Assembly: GCF_001831495.1 (NCBI RefSeq)
Contig: NZ_CP017689.1
Coordinates: forward strand, 1,116,001 to 1,180,000
Direction: 5' to 3'
Length of the DNA stretch: 64,000 nt
From: Thalassotalea crassostreae
Lineage (GTDB): Bacteria > Pseudomonadota > Gammaproteobacteria > Enterobacterales > Alteromonadaceae
The position numbers were made by a program, and so were the translations under genes. Below, piece after piece: positions 15,430 through 56,813 of this stretch. The notes under the pieces were generated by a model. The model saw only the letters and a program-made list of their open reading frames with translations, was not told the origin of the DNA and did not search any database. How positions within the stretch are numbered: position 1 is the first letter of the stretch; the number at the start of each line of letters is the position of its first letter.

Positions 15430-16326
15430 ATGTCTGAAAAATTACAGAAAGTATTAGCTAGAGCAGGTAAAGGCTCACGACGCGAAATGGAAGGCGTTAT
15501 CAGTCAAGGACGCGTAAGTGTTAATGGTAAGGTTGCTTATCTTGGTGATCGCGTTGAAGGTAACGAACAAATTCGCATTGATGGACATCAAGTTAAAATA
15601 GTTAACGTTGATGAACAACCTTGTCGCGTTTTGGTTTACAACAAACCTGAAGGCGAAATGTGTACTCGTAAAGATCCTGAAGGTAGACCAACCGTTTTTG
15701 ACCGACTTCCACGTATCGAAGGTAGTCGTTGGGTTGCCGTTGGTCGTTTGGATATCAATACATCAGGTATGCTTATTTTCACCAATGATGGTGAATTAGC
15801 CAATCGCTTAATGCACCCATCTCACGAAGTTGAACGTGAATATGCCGTCCGTGTTTTCGGTGAAATTGATGAAGCGATGTTACAACGCCTTCGTCATGGC
15901 GTTAAGCTTGAAGACGGTATGGCCAAGTTCGACAAAATTACCTACAAAGGTGGTGAAGGTCGTAATCATTGGTTCCACGTTGTTCTAACGGAAGGTAGAA
16001 ACCGAGAAGTAAGACGTTTATGGGAATCACAAGATGTCTTAGTAAGTCGTCTTATCCGTGTTCGCTATGGTGATATGACCATGGAGCGCAGACTACCACT
16101 TGGTGGCTGGGTTGAGTTAAATCTTAAAGATGTTAACTATTACCGTAAGTTAGTACAGTTATCTGCGGAAACTCAATCGAAAGTGAAAGTCGATGAAAAA
16201 CGCATTGATAACACTAAGAGTCGTAAGATCCGTAACCAAGTGAAAAAACATCAACAACGTCAAGGCCAGTCGCAACAGCAACAACGCCAAGGACAAAAGC
16301 AGCAACGTACGAGAAAGCGTCGCTAA
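15430..16326 (+). CDS. rluB: 23S rRNA pseudouridine-2605 synthase
   Basis: 298 residues. An S4 RNA-binding domain (residues ~2-60, [17 protein letters not shown]) precedes the RsuA/RluB catalytic domain with catalytic Asp108 in [10 protein letters not shown]. It isomerises U2605 (E. coli numbering) in the peptidyl-transferase region of 23S rRNA. The last ~50 residues are a Lys/Arg/Gln-rich disordered tail, as in other RluB proteins, which separates it from RluE and RsuA. Last gene of the rnm-yciO-scpAB-rluB group, followed by a strong terminator. Confidence 0.95.
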
Positions 16327-16367
16327 ACATAGGCAGTTTGGCTAAACATCAGCCTAAAAGAAAAATG

Positions 16368-16401
16368 AAAGAGGATTATGATAGTCATAATCCTCTTTTT
16401 T
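16368..16401 (+). terminator. Strong terminator after rluB
   Basis: A perfect 14-bp stem AAAGAGGATTATGA / TCATAATCCTCTTT with loop TAG and a T run. It ends the rnm-rluB transcript and marks the edge of the accessory region that follows. Confidence 0.95.
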
Positions 16402-16500
16402 GTGCATGCTATTTCTGCTTTGTGTCATTCAGAGACAGTCACAATATCAGAAAAAGAGCACCAAAGAAGCCCGCACACAATAAGAAAAAGTACAACGTCA

Positions 16501-16570
16501 TTGTGGCGAAGGCCACAACCTCCTCAAGCGCAATGAGAGTATAAGTTCGACTTCCTGAACTTGTTTCAGG
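16501..16570. repeat. Two short intergenic palindromes
   Basis: TTGTGGC-GAAG-GCCACAA (16501-16518) is a perfect 7-bp stem, and CCTGAA-CTTGT-TTCAGG (16554-16570) is a 6-bp inverted repeat. Neither is followed by a T run on the plus strand. The second resembles REP-type dispersed palindromes seen between genes in many marine bacteria; no copy is seen elsewhere in this window. The stretch 16402-16632 holds no supported gene. Confidence 0.5.
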
Positions 16571-16632
16571 ATCTGTTTTGGTTCTGCTGTGACCGGCTAA
16601 AAAGTGCCATTTGCCGTCAGTCGATAAAGCTC

Positions 16633-16713
16633 ATTAAGAGGCTGGAAATATAGTTGGCTATAAAATTGAGCGGAGCGAAAACAGCCATTAGAAATACCTT
16701 CTGCACAATTAAG
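16633..16713 (-). other. attC-like recombination site, 3' of the 195-aa cassette gene
   Basis: An imperfect long palindrome starting ATTAAG and ending AATTAAG (plus strand). Its inner arms are GTTGGCT (16653-16659) and AGCCATT (16683-16689), around a ~23-base centre. The spacing and arm sequence parallel the clearer attC at 17866-17957. In the minus orientation it begins at the stop codon of the 195-residue gene, where the attC of a cassette should be. An antisense-looking reading frame through it is explained by the palindrome. Arms match less well than in the 17866 copy. Confidence 0.55.
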
Positions 16714-17296
16714 TTCCTCTTGGCATCGGTAGCACACAAGGCATCTTAGGATTCTCTTTTTGTAACTCCTTACAACTCTTTGGTGTTCCATTAACAAACT
16801 TCTTAACTGTTAATCTTTTTGAGACACCTCGATAAACAGACGACCATTCTGGTGAGTGTTTAAAGTGTTTTTCAAGATGAGAAAAAACAACGTGCATTGG
16901 GCCTTCGAAAATTAGTCCCTCTCTTTTAATAATTACAAACGTATTTGGATCAACACCGTCATGTCGTTTAAAAACAACACTGAACGCAGTATTTAATAAA
17001 GACTTCTTTAATAGATAGTCCGCAAAGGTAACTGCTGGGTCTTTACATCTTAAACTCATAACATACTTATAGAAGAAGTCTCGAACATCGCCATGATATT
17101 TTTTTATTTTATCTATCGTTATCGTATATTGAACAGAACCTGGACCTTCGAGTAGAATAAGACATAAGTTTTCAGTATTGCCATTACTAATTTTGTTAAA
17201 ATAGTCTGGAAGAATTGGATAACGATCTCTTAACTCTGCGGATACAGTGGTATTGAACATTAACAAAAGAGATAAGAAGCAAACTAAAATTCTCAT
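16709..17296 (-). CDS. Secreted protein of unknown function, probable integron cassette gene
   Basis: 195 residues beginning with a signal peptide (MRILVCFLSLLLMFNTTVSA, cleavage after SA). The mature part is basic and contains no domain I recognise; YILPDYFNKI-like segments and three cysteines (Leu-Cys-Leu near residue 45, SLRCKDP, then SCKE and MPC near the end) could form disulfides. A Shine-Dalgarno is weak. It is bounded on both sides by attC-like palindromes, a single-gene layout typical of integron cassettes. Function unknown. Confidence 0.7.
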   Translation of the reverse strand: MRILVCFLSLLLMFNTTVSAELRDRYPILPDYFNKISNGNTENLCLILLEGPGSVQYTITIDKIKKYHGDVRDFFYKYVMSLRCKDPAVTFADYLLKKSLLNTAFSVVFKRHDGVDPNTFVIIKREGLIFEGPMHVVFSHLEKHFKHSPEWSSVYRGVSKRLTVKKFVNGTPKSCKELQKENPKMPCVLPMPRGT

Positions 17297-17320
17297 AATA
17301 TATATTCCTATGGCCAGCTT

Positions 17321-17410
17321 TTTTAACGATTCAGGTTTGCGGTTTCTGGACGTCAGAAGTGTAGGCCCATCTATAGCCCTTGATATCCATCCGATTTCTC
17401 GGAGCTTAAC
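17321..17410 (-). other. attC-like recombination site between two cassette genes
   Basis: A ~90-base imperfect palindrome bounded by TTAACG (17323) and GCTTAAC (17404-17410) on the plus strand. Internal pairing is TGGACGTCA against TGGATATCA (from the reverse complement), plus GCGG against TCGG. In the minus orientation it follows the stop of the frameshifted cassette gene by 3 bases and ends GTTAAA just before the next gene. The core sites fit RYYYAAC/GTTRRR loosely. This is weaker than the 17866 site; a covariance search would decide. Confidence 0.5.
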
Positions 17411-17413
17411 TTA

Positions 17414-17840
17414 TTAGCAGCTTACAAAGAGAACTTCTAGGTTGTCAAGAAATGTAACACCATTGAAAACCCATCCGTTTGGCGACTTGTAAAATGTGAC
17501 AGTCCAGTAAATAGCATGATTTTGAAATTTATGGAGGTAGTAATAACGAAGAAATGAATTTGCAATGCGTTCTTCACGGACGAATTCTTTGCCTTTGCTT
17601 TCCCCCGAACCGTTGGTCAACAATTGGCCACTGAGTTGATATTTGGCTGGCCAATCCATCAATTTCAACTGAAGGCATTGGCCAGTAAGGCTTTGCTAAT
17701 GCCAAGCCCTGCTGAAACTCTTTTCTCGTGAAATGCGCTATCATTTTTTCGGATAAAACTTTAGCTTCGTCCGGCCCCTTAATCGTATCAGCAAATGAAA
17801 AGCTTGAGATAAAGGTAATAAATATTCCGATAATTTTCAT
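17414..17840 (-). pseudogene. Frameshifted small secreted protein, cassette gene
   Basis: Two overlapping frames join into one sensible protein if one G is removed from the G5 run at 17602-17606. The 5' part reads MKIIGIFITFISSFSFADT (signal peptide) through AKPYWPMPSVEIDGLASQ to WPIVDQRFG; the 3' part resumes at GKEFVREERIANSFLRYYYLHKF and ends NGVTFLDNLEVLFVSC. The intact product would be ~141 residues of a secreted protein of unknown function. The start at 17840 has AGGAGC 5 bases upstream. This may be a genuine mutation or a homopolymer sequencing error. Confidence 0.65.
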
Positions 17841-17865
17841 TATTGCTCCTTTGTTCATAAAGACT

Positions 17866-17957
17866 GCTAACGCCTCATTCAGAGGCAAATAATTGTTGGC
17901 TAAAATCGCGACGCAGGAGCAAAAGCCAACTGTTATTTGTCCTGCTGCAATGACTTG
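17866..17957 (-). other. attC-like recombination site, interrupted by the IS element
   Basis: The clearest attC of the region. Inner arms AAATAATTGTTGGCT (17887-17901) and AGCCAACTGTTATTT (17924-17938) pair with two mismatches. The outer arms continue the match: TCATT-CAG on one side and TCATTGCAG on the reverse complement of the other, with one extra G as expected for an extrahelical base. The left edge is GCTAAC (GTTAGC on the minus strand), next to the cassette gene that starts at 17840. The expected terminal TTAAC on the other edge is missing, because the IS begins there. Confidence 0.75.
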
Positions 17958-17979
17958 ATACTTATTGAGCCTTCTCCCC

Positions 17980-18004
17980 GAAGTCTAGCGATAAACTAGA
18001 CTTC
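17980..18004 (+). promoter_or_regulatory. Perfect hairpin upstream of the transposase
   Basis: GAAGTCTAG and CTAGACTTC form a perfect 9-bp stem with loop CGATAAA, enclosed by GCCTT / AAGGC. It lies 30 bases before the transposase start and its AAGGAGA ribosome site. It may limit read-through translation or act as an end-recognition structure. There is no T run, so it is not a typical terminator. Confidence 0.55.
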
Positions 18005-18034
18005 AAGGCGACCAAACCAAAAGGAGAACACTCA

Positions 18035-19078
18035 ATGAAATTCTATACTAATTCTCACCCTTTTTATTGTGGGATCGATCTTCATTCACGTATTTTGTAC
18101 GTGTGCATTATTGATAATGAAGGAAAAACTGTTTTACATCAACAGATTAAAGCAGATAAGCAACAACTATTAAATTTACTAAAACCTTACATTGGCCATG
18201 TCGTTGTTGGTGTTGAATGTATGCATTGCTGGTATTGGGTTAGTGATTGGTGTGAAGAATATAGTATTGATTTTATTCTAGGCCATGCACTTTATATGAA
18301 AGCTATTCATGGTGGGAAAGCCAAAAACGACAAAATAGATTCTTATAAAATTGCCTGTTTAATGCGTGGCGGTAACTTCCCTCTTGCTTACGTTTACCCT
18401 TCAAGAATGCGTGCAACTCGCGACTTACTCAGACGACGAACTCATGTTGTTAGGCACGGTGCTGATTTAAAAGCACATGTCGTTAATACCGACAGCCAAT
18501 ATAATTTACCGTCTCAAGCACTCAATCTGAAAAATATATCAGCCAGAGAAGGCTTAAAACACCATTACGAGGACCCTGTTATTCAGCGAACCATCGAGCT
18601 GGATATGGTGTTACTTGATTGCTATGCAAAAGAGTTAAAGAAAGTAGAATGGTTTATCGAAAAACAAGCGAAAGAGCACCACGGTTGTTATTTATCATTA
18701 ATACGCACCTTTCCTGGTATCGGACAAATTCTTGGGTTAACCATTCTTTATGAAATTGGTGAGATTTGCCGATTTGAATCCGTTCAAAACTTTGCCTCTT
18801 ATAGTCGACTCGTAAAGTGTAAAGCCGAGTCAGCAGGTAAAATTTATGGTACTAGCGGCAATAAGATTGGAAATGGCTATCTAAAGTGGGCATTTAGCGA
18901 AGCCGCGGTTCTGTATCTGCGCGGTAACGATAGAGCGAAAAACCATCTAAGCAAACTGCAAAAACGCATGAGCAAAGGCAAAGCACTCTCTGCGTTAGCG
19001 CATAAAATAGGTCGTTGTGTGTATTACATGCTGAAAAACAAAACGGTATTTGATGAAGATAAATTTTTAAAAGGTTAA
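18035..19078 (+). CDS. IS110-family transposase (DEDD)
   Basis: 347 residues. The N-terminal RuvC-like DEDD domain has Asp15 (CGIDLHSR), Glu61 (GVECMHCW), Asp99 and Asp102 (NDKIDSYK). The C-terminal domain has the helix-hairpin-like FPGIGQILGLTILYEIG and then ESAGKIYGTSGNKIGNGYLKWAFSEAA, where Ser266 is the likely conserved nucleophilic serine of this family. It appears complete. IS110 recombinases use a non-coding RNA from the element to pair donor and target DNA. AAGGAGA lies 9 bases before the ATG. Confidence 0.95.
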   Translation: MKFYTNSHPFYCGIDLHSRILYVCIIDNEGKTVLHQQIKADKQQLLNLLKPYIGHVVVGVECMHCWYWVSDWCEEYSIDFILGHALYMKAIHGGKAKNDKIDSYKIACLMRGGNFPLAYVYPSRMRATRDLLRRRTHVVRHGADLKAHVVNTDSQYNLPSQALNLKNISAREGLKHHYEDPVIQRTIELDMVLLDCYAKELKKVEWFIEKQAKEHHGCYLSLIRTFPGIGQILGLTILYEIGEICRFESVQNFASYSRLVKCKAESAGKIYGTSGNKIGNGYLKWAFSEAAVLYLRGNDRAKNHLSKLQKRMSKGKALSALAHKIGRCVYYMLKNKTVFDEDKFLKG

Positions 19079-19310
19079 GTCGCACAATGGCGTGAGCCTA
19101 AAGCCTAACTCGCTGGTTAAGAGCATGAACTATCATCGTCGTTTAATCACTATTTGATGATGATTATGCCAAGTTGTCCAAGCCCATATTGCTTGATTAG
19201 ACACGCCATTGGTGCGCATACAAACAATAAGCAAAATCGTTTACACCTTAGCTAAGCCTGAAACTAACTGAACGTTTGAATCACTTTGCTTGAATAGTGC
19301 TAGTCAAAGG
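19079..19310 (+). ncRNA. Candidate IS-encoded guide (bridge/seek) RNA
   Basis: The 232-base non-coding right end has nested complementarity. A long stem pairs GCACAATGGCGTG (19082-19094) with CACGCCATTGGTGC (19202-19215), with one bulged base. Inside it, ATCATCGTC (19132-19140) pairs with GATGATGAT (19156-19164). A second domain pairs AAGCAAA (19229-19235) with TTTGCTT (19285-19291). Two consecutive stem-loops downstream of the transposase gene match where IS1111-type elements encode their guide RNA. Exact ends, promoter and guide loops are not determined. Confidence 0.5.
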
Positions 19311-19357
19311 TTAACCGAAGAATGTCTAGTGCCCCTATTTTCACCAAGGAGGATGGA

Positions 19358-19465
19358 ATGATAGGCAGTGATGAGATCACATTAAGAGAGCCTCAATATG
19401 TGTTTGCAGTAAACGATGATTTAATTGCAAAGCGACAGAACGAAGCAGACGTTTTTGCTAATTGA
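19358..19465 (+). CDS. Possible 35-residue ORF with consensus ribosome site
   Basis: AAGGAGG lies 5 bases upstream of an ATG that opens MIGSDEITLREPQYVFAVND and continues to 35 residues. The strong ribosome site is the only positive evidence; the peptide matches no family I know. It lies just outside the right end of the IS. It may be a real small protein, or the residue of a larger gene cut by the insertion. Confidence 0.35.
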   Translation: MIGSDEITLREPQYVFAVNDDLIAKRQNEADVFAN

Positions 19466-19534
19466 TATAAGAGGTGGCTGCTACGCAACCACAGAATTTC
19501 TAGTGCTTATTTGACAGGAAAAGGCTCATATGTG

Positions 19535-19945
19535 TTATGTATCGCCATCACATTGCTTCTTATTAGATTCTAGTGTCAGCAATTGATTTACAGTCATTCC
19601 AACACAAAAAAGTAAAGTACCCCAAAAGAAATAAGGATCTTCTTCCATAGATAAACCACCATGTTTCCCAGGTATATTCCCATAATAGAGACAGGCTGCT
19701 GCGGCAATTAGAATAAAAGAAGATGTGATAATTTTTTCTTTATTAGTGCGTTTACGTTTAGGCTTTTTAGTATCTTCTTTAACTTCAACTTCTGACTCTT
19801 CTTCCTCTCTTAGCTTTAATTCATGTAGTAAATCTTTATACCTTTCAGGATATGCTTCCTTATCGATATTTACTTCTACATCATATAACTCTTCGAGTGT
19901 ATAAGATTGATAGTCAGGTTTCACCAAATCCTTCCTTAGATACAT
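19535..19945 (-). CDS. Unknown protein with two predicted membrane helices
   Basis: 136 residues. The N-terminal half is soluble and highly charged (YTLEELYDVEVNIDKEAYPERYKDLLHELKLR, then a Glu/Lys-rich stretch, split here at residue ~46). Two hydrophobic helices follow at ~73-88 (ITSSFILIAAAACLYYG) and ~108-122 (FFWGTLLFCVGMTVNQLL). Such proteins are common and uncharacterised in Alteromonadales; the first half resembles a motif in small membrane proteins with a leading LEEL-DVxxNIDKExxPERY segment. No functional call is possible. It is isolated from its neighbours by more than 200 bases on both sides. Confidence 0.65.
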   Translation of the reverse strand: MYLRKDLVKPDYQSYTLEELYDVEVNIDKEAYPERYKDLLHELKLREEEESEVEVKEDTKKPKRKRTNKEKIITSSFILIAAAACLYYGNIPGKHGGLSMEEDPYFFWGTLLFCVGMTVNQLLTLESNKKQCDGDT

Positions 19946-20175
19946 AACAGCTTTATTAAGAAGAGAACACCTGCATTTGCTGTGTAAAGTGCAGATACTT
20001 ATTCGATAGCGTATGTCTCATAATCGCTCTTTTCTGCCGCTAGGCTTTTAATTTAAATTGCGTTATATTTATCTATGATGCAAATGCGCCAAAACGGTAC
20101 TTAAGTTGAAAAAGGTAACTTTACTATATGAAAGCTAAATGATTGGCAACTATTTAGGGATTTATGTTTCAGAAT

Positions 20176-20541
20176 TTAGCCCTGAACTTCCATTTTTTCT
20201 CCCCACTCATAAAACAATCTATCAATCGATTCTCTATCATTGCCAACTTCATACAGAGCATATAGTTTTTCGTGTAGCTGAAGTGACAAAAGCATTTCAG
20301 GATAGCCCTTAATGATTCTAAAAGGACCAAAATCAGGCTCAGTTGGAATCCACATATTGGAAGCTTGTATTACATTGGCTAGCCTAGAATTTATTTCAGA
20401 GGTGCCTTCACCAAAATTATTTTCCAATCGATAAGCGTATATTGTCATGTACTTACTATCTTTATACATATATATGCCATTAGCGACATATTCTTTACTA
20501 TTTCTATTTAAAGGGGTCATATGTTCAGGATCAAGTAACAT
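20176..20541 (-). CDS. Hypothetical protein
   Basis: 121 residues, no signal peptide or membrane helix, moderately acidic. It begins MLLDPEHMTPLNRNSKEYV and contains GIYMYKDSKYMTIYAYRLENNFGEG and PDFGPFRIIKGYPEMLLSL. I recognise no family. The ribosome site is poor and flanking spacers are 150-230 bases. It belongs to the run of small unknown genes next to the integron remnant, and could itself be a former cassette, although no attC was found beside it. Confidence 0.55.
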   Translation of the reverse strand: MLLDPEHMTPLNRNSKEYVANGIYMYKDSKYMTIYAYRLENNFGEGTSEINSRLANVIQASNMWIPTEPDFGPFRIIKGYPEMLLSLQLHEKLYALYEVGNDRESIDRLFYEWGEKMEVQG

Positions 20542-20690
20542 AATTTTATAATCTCGTTGGGTTTAAAATCTAATAGCCAGTTTGGGGAATTGCTTATACT
20601 TACCACCAATAGCAAGTATCTGTAGTTCGCTCTTTAGAGACCTTACCCTAATTAACTGTATTTGTTCAAGGCAGCTGTAAGAAACCCACT

Positions 20691-21053
20691 TTAACACAGT
20701 GATTTTTGTAAACGATACTGTCCCTGAATAAATAATAAGTGTGCGGCAAAGCGTTTGTTGGCGTTGTTATCAAACCAAACCGGTTCAATAATTTCTCTTT
20801 CAACCGCCGCTTCAAATATGCGTACCGGGTACTTTTTATAGAATGCTATTGAGAGTTCTACATGACAAGGTTTATTCGGGTATTGCTCATTTCTACTTTG
20901 TTCAAATTCTTGTTTTAATTGATCAATGAGTAATGGTGCGATGCTATTGTTGAGCCAGTCGATAAAACGATTAAAGCGCTTTGCCTGCCATAACTTCCAA
21001 GCCATCCAAACAAGGATGAGGCTGGCGATACTAAGCATGATGATTTCAGTCAT
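20691..21053 (-). CDS. Small membrane-anchored hypothetical protein
   Basis: 120 residues. One N-terminal membrane helix (MTEIIMLSIASLILVWMAWKLW), then a soluble domain containing FIDWLNNSIAPLLIDQLKQEFE and a cysteine near residue 64. No known family. It lies 66 bases upstream of ogt, on the same strand but in the downstream direction, so co-transcription after ogt is possible. Confidence 0.65.
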   Translation of the reverse strand: MTEIIMLSIASLILVWMAWKLWQAKRFNRFIDWLNNSIAPLLIDQLKQEFEQSRNEQYPNKPCHVELSIAFYKKYPVRIFEAAVEREIIEPVWFDNNANKRFAAHLLFIQGQYRLQKSLC

Positions 21054-21119
21054 AAATAAAACTAATACAAATTATTAAACAATAAATGGGATCGGCAGAA
21101 TAACAATTTAATCTAATAA

Positions 21120-21641
21120 TTACACTTTAAAATATGCTTTTTCGTGCATCAGTAATTTTGCCTTGATGCCGATGCCACCGGCATAACCCGTTAGCTTCTT
21201 GTCTTTGCCGATGACCCTATGACAAGGAACAATAATAGCAATTTTGTTTGAGCCATTTGCCGTTCCTACGGCTCTAACTGCTTTTGGGTTGTTAATGATA
21301 TTGGCTAAATCACCATAACTTTTGGTTTGCCCCATCTCAATAGTTGTTAATGCATGCCAAACTGTTTTTTGAAAGTTCGTGCCTTGTTGCGCTAATGGTA
21401 AATCAAACACTCGACGCTCACCGGCAAAATATTGCTCGAGTTGTTGTTTGGCAATAGCGACAAATTCGGCTCCAGTATTTGAGCCAGAGCTAAAATTTGT
21501 TGTGTTGCTAACTAGGGTACAATTATCCAAGCAAGCGGCTGCTTTACCTTGTTGAAAAGCGACTTCAATTAGTCCGTCATTGCTAGCGATAATTGCAATA
21601 TCACCATAATCAGATGACAGAATGTTGTAATATTTATCCAT
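21120..21641 (-). CDS. ogt: Methylated-DNA--protein-cysteine methyltransferase
   Basis: 173 residues. A suicide repair enzyme that takes the alkyl group from O6-alkylguanine. The acceptor is Cys140 in IIVPCHRVIG; the helix-turn-helix NPKAVRAVGTANGSN precedes it. The N-terminal RNase H-like domain is present. It lies 86 bases downstream of the Ada-AlkA fusion gene on the same strand, so the two form an alkylation-repair pair. Confidence 0.95.
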   Translation of the reverse strand: MDKYYNILSSDYGDIAIIASNDGLIEVAFQQGKAAACLDNCTLVSNTTNFSSGSNTGAEFVAIAKQQLEQYFAGERRVFDLPLAQQGTNFQKTVWHALTTIEMGQTKSYGDLANIINNPKAVRAVGTANGSNKIAIIVPCHRVIGKDKKLTGYAGGIGIKAKLLMHEKAYFKV

Positions 21642-53360: not shown

Positions 53361-53445
<85 letters not shown>

Positions 53446-53457
53446 AATCCGAGGTGA

Positions 53458-53485
53458 ATTATAGGGATCGTTAGTAAAAGCGCAA
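53458..53485 (-). promoter_or_regulatory. Promoter of the distal tRNA-Leu
   Basis: TTGCGC (-35) and TATAAT (-10) with 16 bases between, ending 12 bases before the tRNA. This is a near-consensus sigma-70 promoter, as expected for a stable RNA. Confidence 0.8.
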
Positions 53486-53653
53486 GCATTTTTTAATTAT
53501 TTTTAATATTTTATTTCAAAACAATTTCGTTTTATCGAATTGTTGCCTAAAAAATACAACAGCTGTTTATTCTTTATCCTCCTCGCGCTTTGCTAAATTA
53601 CTGTTTCAACACTATATTTTGATGATGGAATAATAATTAAAACAGGGCCCCAA

Positions 53654-55483
53654 TTGTCTGCATCGCTATTTGAAGAATTAAAAAGACGTAATGTATTTAG
53701 AGTAGGTGTCAGCTATTTGGTACTTGCTTGGATAGTTATACAAGTAACGAGTATTGCAGTTCCTGCGTTACATTTACCTGATTGGGTAAATTCTTTAGTA
53801 TTCTATTTTGGTCTTATAGGCTTTCCTTTTGCTTTATTTTTCGCCTGGGCCTTTGAAATCACACCAGATGGTATTAAGCGCGAGGCGGATGTGGATCGCA
53901 GTCAATCTATTGCTCCTCAAACCGGCCGTTATCTTGATTACACGATTATTGCATTATTATCAGTCGCCTTACTGTATTTCGTATGGGAAAGTCGATTTGA
54001 GACTGATACTTTAACGCAGCCAGAAGTCGCTGCGGAGCATACACCAGCATCAATCTCTAAAGTTATTTCTATTGCCGTTTTGGCATTTGAAAATATGTCT
54101 TCAGATAAAGAGCAAAGCTTTTTCTCTGATGGGATTTCAGAGGAAATATTAAATGTATTGGTAAAGGTCCCGGGATTGGATGTGTCTTCACGCACATCAT
54201 CATTTCAATTTAAAGGTCGAGATATAGGGATCCCTGCTATCGCAAAAGAGTTAAAAGTACGTTACGTCGTAGAAGGATCGGTTCGAAAAGCTGGAGACAA
54301 TATCCGTGTAACGGCTCAGTTAATTGATTCAACTAATGACAAACACTTATGGTCAGACACCTACGATAGACCTTTAAATATAGAGAATGTATTCGTAATC
54401 CAAGATGAAATTGCGGGTTCAATTGTTCAGGCATTAAGCGATGTTCTTGGTACCAATCAAATCGCCGTTAAAGTAGATAAATCGACTAATAATTTAGATG
54501 CATACGAATTATATTTAAAAGCAAGGACACTATTTCATGCTCGAATCGATTTAGATATCGCAGATCAACTATTGGTTCAAGCTATCGATAAAGACGCTAA
54601 TTTTTCAAAGGCATGGGGAATAAGATCTGCATTACAGTCATTAATGGTTGAATATGGATATAGTGACAATTCAATTGATAACGTAGATAGGTTGACAGTT
54701 GAATATGCCAAAACAGCAATTGGTTTGAATCCTAATAGTGCGACTGCCTTCGCCGCCATGGGATTAATGATGTACAACAGTAACGTTGATCTTAGAACGC
54801 AATATAATTGGGAAGAGATTTTTGAATTATATGAAAAAGCACTTTCAATCGAGCCAACCAGTGCTTCAGCATTAAATTGGCAAGGATTGTCTTATTTGTC
54901 GGTTGGCGAATTAGATGAGGCATTGAAAAGTTTTAAACAGTGTATTGAATATGAGCCTTATTATACGCCGTGTGTTGATAATCAAATGGTGATGCTTGGT
55001 TATATGGGCACTGACGACGAAGCAGTAAAAGCGTTTCTTGATGCATTAGATTCAGGCCTTGTGAAACTTGATCAAGCGAGTTATTTCCTGCCATTACTCG
55101 CCCGATTAAATAAAGAGCTTGTATTTAAATCTGTGACCAATTTACAAACGGTTTTATTCGGCTGGCGACGACATGATGAATTGTATGATGCTTATAGAAA
55201 TCCAGGGGAGATTTATACTGAGTTAATTACTGACATAAAGCGTTTTAGTGAAAGTAATAGAGTATCAGAACCGACTTATTTAAGAATGATTTTATTGTAT
55301 ATCGGAGACTATGATGCTTTACCTTTTACTTTGTCTATGTGGGATAAGTCGTTATATAACTATCGACAATCGCCACAATTCCACTCTTTTATCAAGAAAA
55401 GTAATGTGTTGAAATATTGGCAAAACAATGGTTTTCCAAAACAATGTAAACCGCAAGGGAAAGTCGATTTTTATTGTGATTAA
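53654..55483 (+). CDS. TolB/FlgO-like domain and TPR protein with membrane helices
   Basis: 609 residues, TTG start (no in-frame ATG nearby). The opening FEELKRRNVFRVGVSYLVLAWIVIQV with helices at ~17-35, ~45-67 and ~93-110 is typical of a family of gammaproteobacterial sensor proteins. Residues ~135-270 are a TolB/FlgO-like domain (IAVLAFENMSSDKEQSFFSDGISEEILNVL, VRYVVEGSVRKAGDNIRVTAQLID). Residues ~280-600 are TPR helices (ALNWQGLSYLSVGELDEALKSF). Relatives carry an N-terminal CadC-type DNA-binding or adenylate-cyclase domain, lacking here. It lies between two tRNA units, opposite to them. Confidence 0.85.
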   Translation: MSASLFEELKRRNVFRVGVSYLVLAWIVIQVTSIAVPALHLPDWVNSLVFYFGLIGFPFALFFAWAFEITPDGIKREADVDRSQSIAPQTGRYLDYTIIALLSVALLYFVWESRFETDTLTQPEVAAEHTPASISKVISIAVLAFENMSSDKEQSFFSDGISEEILNVLVKVPGLDVSSRTSSFQFKGRDIGIPAIAKELKVRYVVEGSVRKAGDNIRVTAQLIDSTNDKHLWSDTYDRPLNIENVFVIQDEIAGSIVQALSDVLGTNQIAVKVDKSTNNLDAYELYLKARTLFHARIDLDIADQLLVQAIDKDANFSKAWGIRSALQSLMVEYGYSDNSIDNVDRLTVEYAKTAIGLNPNSATAFAAMGLMMYNSNVDLRTQYNWEEIFELYEKALSIEPTSASALNWQGLSYLSVGELDEALKSFKQCIEYEPYYTPCVDNQMVMLGYMGTDDEAVKAFLDALDSGLVKLDQASYFLPLLARLNKELVFKSVTNLQTVLFGWRRHDELYDAYRNPGEIYTELITDIKRFSESNRVSEPTYLRMILLYIGDYDALPFTLSMWDKSLYNYRQSPQFHSFIKKSNVLKYWQNNGFPKQCKPQGKVDFYCD

Positions 55484-55589
55484 AAGCAAGTTAATGGTTT
55501 ATTTATTAATTTTATTTTAGGCATAAAAAAACTCCGGAGAAAGATTCGATAGGAAAATATCTTCGGAGTTTTTCTATATAGATATCAAA

Positions 55590-55684
55590 TGGTGCGGACT
55601 TCGATACTTGAACTCTCACATCGCCAATGGTGCTAGAGGAACCTAAATCCAATGGATTTATAGTTCAGCTATTCAGCTAACTCT
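55590..55684 (-). pseudogene. Decayed tRNA-Leu, copy A
   Basis: The 3' part keeps the CCA end, GTCCGC, most of the T-arm (GAGAGTTCAAGT) and the anticodon loop GATTTAGGTTC with TAG. The 5' acceptor strand and D-arm are gone, replaced by AGTTAGCT-GAAT-AGCTGAACT, itself a hairpin, and by AAATCCATTGGATTT. No cloverleaf can form. Identical to copy B. Confidence 0.8.
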
Positions 55685-55755
55685 AGGCATAAAAAAACTC
55701 CGGAGAAAGATTCGATAGGAAAATATCTTCGGAGTTTTTCTATATAGATATCAAA

Positions 55756-55850
55756 TGGTGCGGACTTCGATACTTGAACTCTCACATCGCCAATGGTGCT
55801 AGAGGAACCTAAATCCAATGGATTTATAGTTCAGCTATTCAGCTAACTCT
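55756..55850 (-). pseudogene. Decayed tRNA-Leu, copy B
   Basis: Identical to copy A, offset by exactly 166 bases. It lies beyond the terminator of the intact tRNA-Leu (55922), so it should be transcribed poorly if at all. Confidence 0.8.
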
Positions 55851-55856
55851 AGGCAT

Positions 55857-55905
55857 AAAAAAACTCCGGAGAAAGATTCGATAGGAAAATATCTTCGGAG
55901 TTTTT
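55857..55905 (-). terminator. Terminator of the tRNA operon
   Basis: ACTCCG...CGGAGT stem with further pairs and T runs on both sides. It is the first stop signal after the last intact tRNA-Leu of the operon. Two identical copies follow at 55691-55739 and 55525-55573; the last also faces the end of the TolB/TPR gene and may serve it from the other strand. Confidence 0.85.
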
Positions 55906-55921
55906 CTATATAGATATCAAA

Positions 55922-56143
<222 letters not shown>

Positions 56144-56146
56144 GTA

Positions 56147-56223
56147 TGGTGGCTACACCGGGACTCGAACCTGGGACCCCATCATTATGAGTGATGTGCT
56201 CTAACCAACTGAGCTATGTAGCC
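56147..56223 (-). tRNA. tRNA-Met (CAU, elongator)
   Basis: 77 bases including CCA. Acceptor GGCTACA / TGTAGCC, anticodon loop CTCATAA (CAT), T-arm CCAGG TTCGAGT CCCGG. Elongator type, as judged by a paired 1:72 end; identical to the copy at 56737. Confidence 0.96.
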
Positions 56224-56305
56224 ATACAAATTTTTACTTTTCTTTAGAGCAAAAAAAAAGCTGATAACAGCTTTATTTTGTTGCCACTTTACTTAATAAG
56301 AAAAG

Positions 56306-56380
56306 TGGCAGGGGTAAGAGGATTTGAACCTCTGAATGACGGGATCAAAACCCGCTGCCTTACCGCTTGGCTATACCCCT
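56306..56380 (-). tRNA. tRNA-Gln (UUG)
   Basis: 75 bases with CCA. Acceptor AGGGGTA / TACCCCT, anticodon loop TTTTGAT (TTG), T-arm GAGG TTCAAAT CCTC. Second of two tandem copies. Confidence 0.96.
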
Positions 56381-56436
56381 GCAGTGTTTTCTGCTTTCTT
56401 ACATTGTTTGTTCCGCCACAATCTTTCGAAAAGAAG

Positions 56437-56511
56437 TGGCAGGGGTAAGAGGATTTGAACCTCTGAATGACGGGATCAAAACCCGCTGCCTTACCGCTTG
56501 GCTATACCCCT
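56437..56511 (-). tRNA. tRNA-Gln (UUG)
   Basis: 75 bases with CCA, identical in the tRNA body to the copy at 56306. The tandem Gln pair matches glnU-glnW in the E. coli metT operon. Confidence 0.96.
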
Positions 56512-56549
56512 ACAATGTATTCTGGCAATTTACCTTCAATGAAAGTAAA

Positions 56550-56638
56550 TGGTGCGATTGAGAGTTTTGACACTCACATTGCCAATGGTATTAGGAGAAC
56601 CTAAATCCAATGGATTTACTATTTCGCTTAATAGTAAA
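56550..56638 (-). pseudogene. Decayed tRNA-Leu, diverged copy C
   Basis: It keeps the CCA end, the anticodon region GGATTTAGGTTC and ATGTGAG, but the acceptor and T stems no longer pair. As in copies A and B, AAATCCATTGGATTT and ACCATTGGC replace normal sequence. The 5' end is TTTACTATT-AAGCGA-AATAGTAAA, a perfect 9-bp hairpin (56615-56638). The shared changes show that A, B and C descend from one already altered copy. Confidence 0.75.
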
Positions 56639-56723
<85 letters not shown>

Positions 56724-56736
56724 AATGTTAATGTTA

Positions 56737-56813
56737 TGGTGGCTACACCGGGACTCGAACCTGGGACCCCATCATTATGAGTGATGTGCTCTAACCAACT
56801 GAGCTATGTAGCC
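56737..56813 (-). tRNA. tRNA-Met (CAU, elongator)
   Basis: 77 bases with CCA, identical to the copy at 56147. It is the first gene of the operon Met-Leu-(decayed Leu)-Gln-Gln-Met-Leu, comparable with metT-leuW-glnU-glnW-metU in E. coli, which also lies next to ubiF. Confidence 0.96.

Follow-up and report, generated by a model that had tools for sequence, protein, structure and literature searches.

Clusters of attC sites and single attC sites that have no neighbouring integron integrase have been described under the names CALIN (cluster of attC sites lacking integron integrase) and SALIN (single attC site lacking integron integrase) (PMC9024848, PMC9229058). A survey of Shewanella reports CALINs in most strains, with 33 complete genomes carrying the integrase gene intI and 26 without it, as well as 115 single orphan cassettes (SALINs) across 41 genomes (PMC9229058). 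Off-site clusters alongside a retained intI are described for Shewanella (PMC9229058) and for Xanthomonas (PMC12444791). By default, IntegronFinder 2 asks for at least two attC sites before it reports a CALIN (PMC9024848). The present work concerns a small group of putative cassettes, together with an insertion sequence (IS) of IS1111 type, in a 64,000-nucleotide stretch of the Thalassotalea crassostreae chromosome (contig NZ_CP017689.1, positions 1,116,001 to 1,180,000), hereafter the window, to which all coordinates refer unless stated otherwise.

Tetu and Holmes (2008) and Post and Hall (2009) are cited for the IS1111-attC group of ISs. The description of IS1111 elements gives them a DEDD transposase and, downstream of it, a non-coding region from which seekRNAs are made (PMC11187229). 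According to the same description, the IS1111-attC elements have subterminal inverted repeats of ∼11–13 bp with terminal extensions of 7 bp on the left and 3 bp on the right, and a target chosen by the seekRNA is reported for ISKpn4, ISPst6 and ISPa25 (PMC11187229).

In this study, the window was compared with the rest of its genome and with related genomes in order to follow up an original prediction, made from the sequence alone, of a remnant cassette array without an integrase that had been entered by an attC-targeting element. The locus is best explained, with a probability of roughly 90%, as a SALIN or decayed CALIN lying far from the integron of the same genome and invaded by an IS1111-attC element.

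Identification of the attC site

The cluster occupies the interval between rluB, which ends at 16326, and a conserved gene, here called gene E (20691–21053). Small minus-strand open reading frames (ORFs) are interspersed there with three palindromic stretches, an alternation that had been predicted and that the ORF calls bear out. The third had been credited with attC-like arms, and the whole had been read as a cassette array. The palindromes were scored with a home-made attC covariance model, R1, built from 14 uninterrupted attC sites of the main integron array of the same genome, none of which lies in the window; as a control of specificity, R1 was run on the rluB region of relatives (17 loci, 63.8 kb), where it made no match at E ≤ 1.

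Palindrome 3 (17866–17957) is a genuine attC, attC 3. With default filters, it is the sole R1 match in the whole window at E ≤ 10 (17865–17963, minus strand, 76.5 bits, E = 1.5e-16). With the filters off, 16 matches at E ≤ 10 were obtained over 16300–21200, one being attC 3, one the strand opposite to it (17.0 bits) and the other 14 no better than chance. Folded as single-stranded DNA, its hairpin reaches −16.2 kcal/mol on the plus strand (z = −1.87, equalled by eight of 200 shuffles) and −16.0 kcal/mol on the minus strand (z = −1.77, nine of 200). Compared over 112 positions, the final 18 being IS sequence, the site shares 92% identity with one main-array site, and it is identical to no main-array attC. 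The long hairpin has the arms that had been proposed for it, with the core missing where the IS begins. The consensus of the R′ core box is GTTRRRY. On the minus strand, attC 3 has the R′ box GTTAGCA at 17865–17871, which deviates from this consensus at the last two bases; the body of the site without its R″ box extends to 17956, and the R″ box, ACATAAC, lies beyond the IS at 19534–19540, where it overlaps the TAA stop codon of gene A.

Palindrome 1 (16633–16713, minus strand), which overlaps the stop codon of gene C, aligned to the 14 array sites with a score of 40; shuffles averaged 18.8, and none of 300 did as well as the palindrome. Its inner loop and 3′ half are recognizable and its 5′ half is eroded; its core reads GCTTTA where the array sites have GCGTTA. 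Because this alignment stands far above chance, we call palindrome 1 a decayed attC (attC 1), although neither the model nor the fold gives a signal. Palindrome 2 (17321–17410, minus strand) was dropped as an attC after the fold, model and alignment tests had all failed; it is either no attC or one eroded past recognition. A further candidate near 19940–20075 was also rejected (128 of 300 shuffles aligned as well; 6.5 bits and E = 4 by R1, on the opposite strand). The folding of each palindrome and the covariance-model scan, both suggested with the prediction, thus favoured palindrome 3, whereas palindromes 1 and 2 folded no better than shuffles and did not score significantly. The folding of these two is what one would expect if all three palindromes were chance or ordinary terminator-like repeats and the IS had merely come to lie between genes. 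For palindrome 3, however, the 76.5 bits already refute this idea; the alignment of palindrome 1, unmatched in 300 shuffles, and the position of the four other IS copies, all in attC sites, also speak against it, and its probability is practically negligible.

The IS1111-type element and its ends

The IS adjoining attC 3 lies on the plus strand and measures 1577 bp, extending over 17957–19533 or, equally, 17958–19534, as one G can be assigned to either side. Its 347-residue DEDD transposase (18035–19078) scores 196.5 bits against NF033542 (cut-off 140) and also matches PF01548 and PF02371, in agreement with the predicted IS110/IS1111 assignment. Downstream of the transposase, a non-coding region (19079–19533) shows conserved blocks in the alignment of relatives and has the position that the description of the family gives to the seekRNA (PMC11187229).

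Five copies of the IS, identical over 1577 bp, are present in the genome: three in the main array, one in the window and one at 997 kb. All five sit in an attC, split at CTT^GTTA in one orientation, and in all five the transposase strand is opposite to the attC model strand; the predicted preference for attC is thereby borne out. The end of the IS had been placed at 19316, and a TTAACC at 19311–19316 had been proposed as the flank that restores the attC core. The identity of all five copies throughout 1577 bp shows that the end at 19316 is wrong and that the true one is at 19533. TTAACC lies inside the IS, in a block (GGTTAACCGA) found in all eight relatives whose alignment reaches this point (12 were aligned). 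When the flanks are rejoined at the true ends, TAACAAG results in five of five copies, as against none with TTAACC as flank, and TAACAA stands at the corresponding position in 14 of 14 uninterrupted sites.

The left end reads GATACTTATTGAGCC and the right end GGCTCATATGT, both with subterminal inverted repeats (TGAGCCTTCTCC on the left and TGAGCCTTTTCC, as reverse complement, on the right) that were delimited by eye as 12 bp with one mismatch. Beyond these repeats, the extensions are 9 bp on the left and 5 bp on the right; values of 7 and 3 bp are obtained only with a 14-bp repeat containing three mismatches. The left–right difference of 4 fits the described one when the ambiguous G is given to the left.

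Relatives of the IS were compared as the best 80 loci (transposase 64–81% identical) from a scan of named genomes that may omit records of the genome under study. Of these 80, 79 contain the left-end motif GATA.T.AT, which is preceded by T in 76; the remaining three loci begin only two bases ahead of it, out of the script's reach, and TT was seen there in a separate comparison. The right end is common to the seven of 20 loci in which the right-end motif was found. In 30 of the 48 named relatives' loci that were scored with R1, an attC on the strand opposite to the transposase ends 70–75 nt upstream of it; the tally was made by hand, the 72 loci scored being 48 of the 80 named and 24 of 30 others, and these 24 were left uncounted. 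The figure is probably a lower bound, because R1 was built from one species.

In common with the IS1111-attC group, the IS of the window has a DEDD transposase, a downstream non-coding region, subterminal inverted repeats and insertion at one end of attC in fixed position and orientation; the likeness to ISKpn4, ISPst6 and ISPa25 is drawn from their descriptions and not from their sequences. By analogy, the seekRNA logic may apply to this IS too. As a separate observation, the non-coding region holds an ORF of 35 codons (19358–19465), the DNA of which is conserved in relatives. The idea that this ORF is a passenger gene was rejected, since its frame carries a stop in many relatives; the conservation across it is probably at the RNA or DNA level.

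The integron and other attC sites of the genome

A full-length intI lies at 3828350–3829297 of the genome (456 bits against TIGR02249, cut-off 265; PF00589 and PF13495 also matched). It is the only one of four integrase-model matches genome-wide that exceeds the cut-off; the three others are weak (24.8–29.1 bits) and, like it, lie outside the window. The predicted absence of intI from the window is therefore correct, and the description of the cluster as integrase-less holds locally and fails for the genome as a whole, where the full-length intI accompanies an array of at least 17 attCs. This main integron (3.813–3.829 Mb) is ∼1.17 Mb from the cluster in the window if the single contig is circular.

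Sister attC sites, which the original prediction had proposed to search for along with intI, are numerous. At E ≤ 1, R1 found at least 31 attCs genome-wide, of which 17 belong to the main array (3813197–3827334) and 14 lie off-site; 13 of the latter reach E ≤ 1e-3. The off-site attCs fall at six loci, namely at ∼301–302, 370–372, 996–999, 2395 and 3353 kb and, in the window itself, at 1133.9 kb. These are lower bounds, as at most 150 first-look candidates were scored per genome (150 of 1508 here). A further weak attC at 2394 kb (25.3 bits) falls outside this tally. The attC of the window is homologous to those of the main array, and the same IS occurs in three attCs of the latter; unlike the window, the main integron has intI and its at least 17 attCs. 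Across the genus, intI exceeds the cut-off in 14 of 15 genomes (own included), with some copies broken or partial, and attC matches occur in all 15, from at least 8 to at least 68 each at E ≤ 1e-3.

Several of these loci have features of their own. In the main array, tandem near-identical cassettes (locus L006, 6489–7211) carry an 84-residue ORF twice, one residue apart. An off-site cluster at ∼371.5 kb (L137, 6486–6969) holds a ribbon–helix–helix antitoxin and a ParE-type toxin (PF20605 and PF05016). An off-site pair of attCs at 301–303 kb (L136, 4010–6038) lies between groEL-like and SulP-like genes, named by eye, together with one gene matching PF13376 and another matching PF00144 (beta-lactamase fold).

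The site of insertion

The rluB region was obtained for 13 of 14 relatives in the genus, no locus being available for the remaining one (G003). A gene E homologue lies downstream of rluB in seven of these 13 loci (L026–L038), and in five of the seven the gap between the matched stretches is ∼100–240 bp. No attC was found by R1 at the rluB region in any of 17 relatives' loci scanned. Relatives that carry the same spacer without cassette genes had been named in advance as evidence against a cassette cluster; such relatives exist, yet they represent the empty site and support an insertion. With this empty site in relatives, the stretch ∼16405–20690 (4.3 kb) is most simply an insertion in this lineage.

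The empty site also bears on the idea that the cluster is the remnant of a second, once complete integron that lost its integrase at this place. The decayed attC 1, the apparent frameshift in gene B and the lack of intI in the window would all fit such erosion. However, no match to an intI model was found in the window (attI was not searched for), rluB stands directly beside gene E in five genus relatives, and R1 gave no attC in any of the 17 loci, so that no ancestral integron platform is apparent; attC 3 is, moreover, close to the main-array attCs (92%). We regard a second integron as very improbable.

At one border, next to the decayed attC 1, lies a dispersed intergenic repeat (16405–16632, no strand assigned), pieces of which occur at 36 places in the genome (own included), one of them directly beside an attC at 301 kb; it holds a palindrome similar to GATCCTGAAACAAGTTCAGGA. 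A 37-residue piece matching next to the 301 kb attC had raised the candidate of a truncated cassette gene at 16405–16630, which was rejected when the sequence and a genome search revealed the dispersed repeat. Both this repeat at the border and the identical IS copies at five places, which offer homology for recombination, could be taken to mean that the cassettes arrived through another mobile element or through homologous recombination between IS copies rather than through the integrase IntI. Against this route, four of the six off-site attC loci are without any copy of this IS, attC 3 is not the same as any main-array site and gene A is unmatched in the main-array stretches examined; it appears unlikely.

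Entry of the cassettes through IntI at a genomic site is likely but unproven. Cassette insertion at genomic attG sites is reportedly to be credited to Loot et al. in 2024. In the proposed sequence of events, the stretch between rluB and gene E is an insertion through which a small number of cassettes came to lie at a great distance from the main integron, with at least two attCs involved, that of gene A (attC 3) and the decayed one after gene C. IntI would have moved these cassettes here by recombination of attC with a genomic site. An IS1111-attC element later entered attC 3 exactly at the R″ core (CTT^GTTA), its target presumably chosen by a seekRNA, and parted R″ from the rest of the site. 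The cassette of attC 3 is probably no longer excisable after this split; we infer that the site is inactive.

Genes of the cluster

Gene A (19535–19945, minus strand, 136 residues) is the cassette gene assigned to attC 3. Apart from its own entry, 20 relatives were found in the database, most of them metagenomic and one from a Salinimonas; matches to it, for the most part weak, occur in 40 of 394 genomes of the order (own included). In eight of the 29 relatives' loci given to R1, the homologue lies directly beside an attC on the same strand. No match to gene A was found in the main-array stretches examined.

Gene B (17414–17844, minus strand) consists of two overlapping ORFs in different frames (17574–17888 and 17414–17668); most of its database relatives are single proteins of ∼140 residues, and it is apparently a frameshifted gene. 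Within the order, four relatives were found; the one at L223 belongs to an array and has an attC on either side.

Gene C (16709–17296, minus strand, 195 residues), of unassigned function, has two paralogues in the genome, at 1395 kb (L134, 4468–4983) and 3409 kb (L135, 4741–5253). The former is flanked by repeated stretches (ACTAACATACCTAAGTTACAG...) and the latter lies just before a gene that by eye resembles mutM. Gene D (20176–20541, minus strand, 121 residues) lies within the inserted stretch.

Genes A, C and D and both ORFs of gene B had no match above threshold in Pfam or NCBIfam. At the gathering thresholds of Rfam, the only matches in the whole window were seven tRNAs, encoded on the minus strand at 53364–56813.

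Discussion

The locus resembles described CALINs and SALINs: attC and small genes stand apart from intI, no integrase neighbours them in the window, and the same genome has an integron as well. It differs from typical cases in that its one recognizable attC is split by an IS and the second is decayed. With one model-supported attC, it falls short of the two that IntegronFinder 2 by default requires of a CALIN and fits a SALIN.

A number of results weigh against reading the locus as displaced cassettes. Only one of the three palindromes is supported as an attC by the model. Palindrome 1 folded no better than 123 and 128 of 200 shuffles on the two strands, and with the filters off R1 gave it 8.2 bits across the inner 33 nt (E = 1.5), which is chance level. 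For palindrome 2, 116 and 79 of 200 shuffles folded as well on the two strands, the score against the array attCs was 17 with a shuffle mean of 18.2 (222 of 300 as good), and with the filters off it was touched only by an opposite-strand match of partial cover (17258–17358, 8.5 bits, E = 1.2). R1 detected no attC at 21 of the 29 loci of gene A relatives; these relatives are weak, and many match just the first ∼50 residues. No attC match was found in the 10 kb examined around either gene C paralogue, so gene C need not be a cassette gene, and its use as proof of cassette origin was dropped. Beside gene D, neither R1 with the filters off nor alignment recognized an attC. Among the named relatives of the IS, 18 of 48 loci have no attC next to the transposase by R1. 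In two genus loci (L027 and L036), ∼1 kb of other sequence separates rluB from gene E, and in the other six of the 13 the stretch examined contains no match to gene E. Finally, the ends of the insertion are not set, with the dispersed repeat at one border and the flanks of relatives too diverged.

Even so, a SALIN or decayed CALIN entered by an IS1111-attC element remains our reading of the locus. Nothing here requires a new kind of system; the arrangement is one that is already known, well preserved. The Shewanella survey states that it detected no IS interrupting attC sites (PMC9229058). In slight contrast, relatives of the window's IS adjoin an attC in four Shewanella loci (L144, L146, L147 and L152); at two other Shewanella loci (L148 and L149), R1 found no attC beside the IS.

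It is quite improbable, in our estimate, that the IS1111-attC copies amount to a second system that locks and mobilizes cassettes. If they did, the split of R″ would block excision by IntI, and the identical IS copies would let the intervening cassettes move by homologous recombination. The locus also carries a caution: a local absence of integrase says nothing of the genome, and here the gene for an enzyme that could work in trans lies at another place on the same chromosome. The locus offers a clean example of cassettes outside an integron together with a transposon of an RNA-guided family that strikes attC at the point of recombination. The five identical copies with restorable targets, together with relatives that adjoin attC across numerous gammaproteobacteria, form a convenient set for work on the recognition of attC by a guide RNA.

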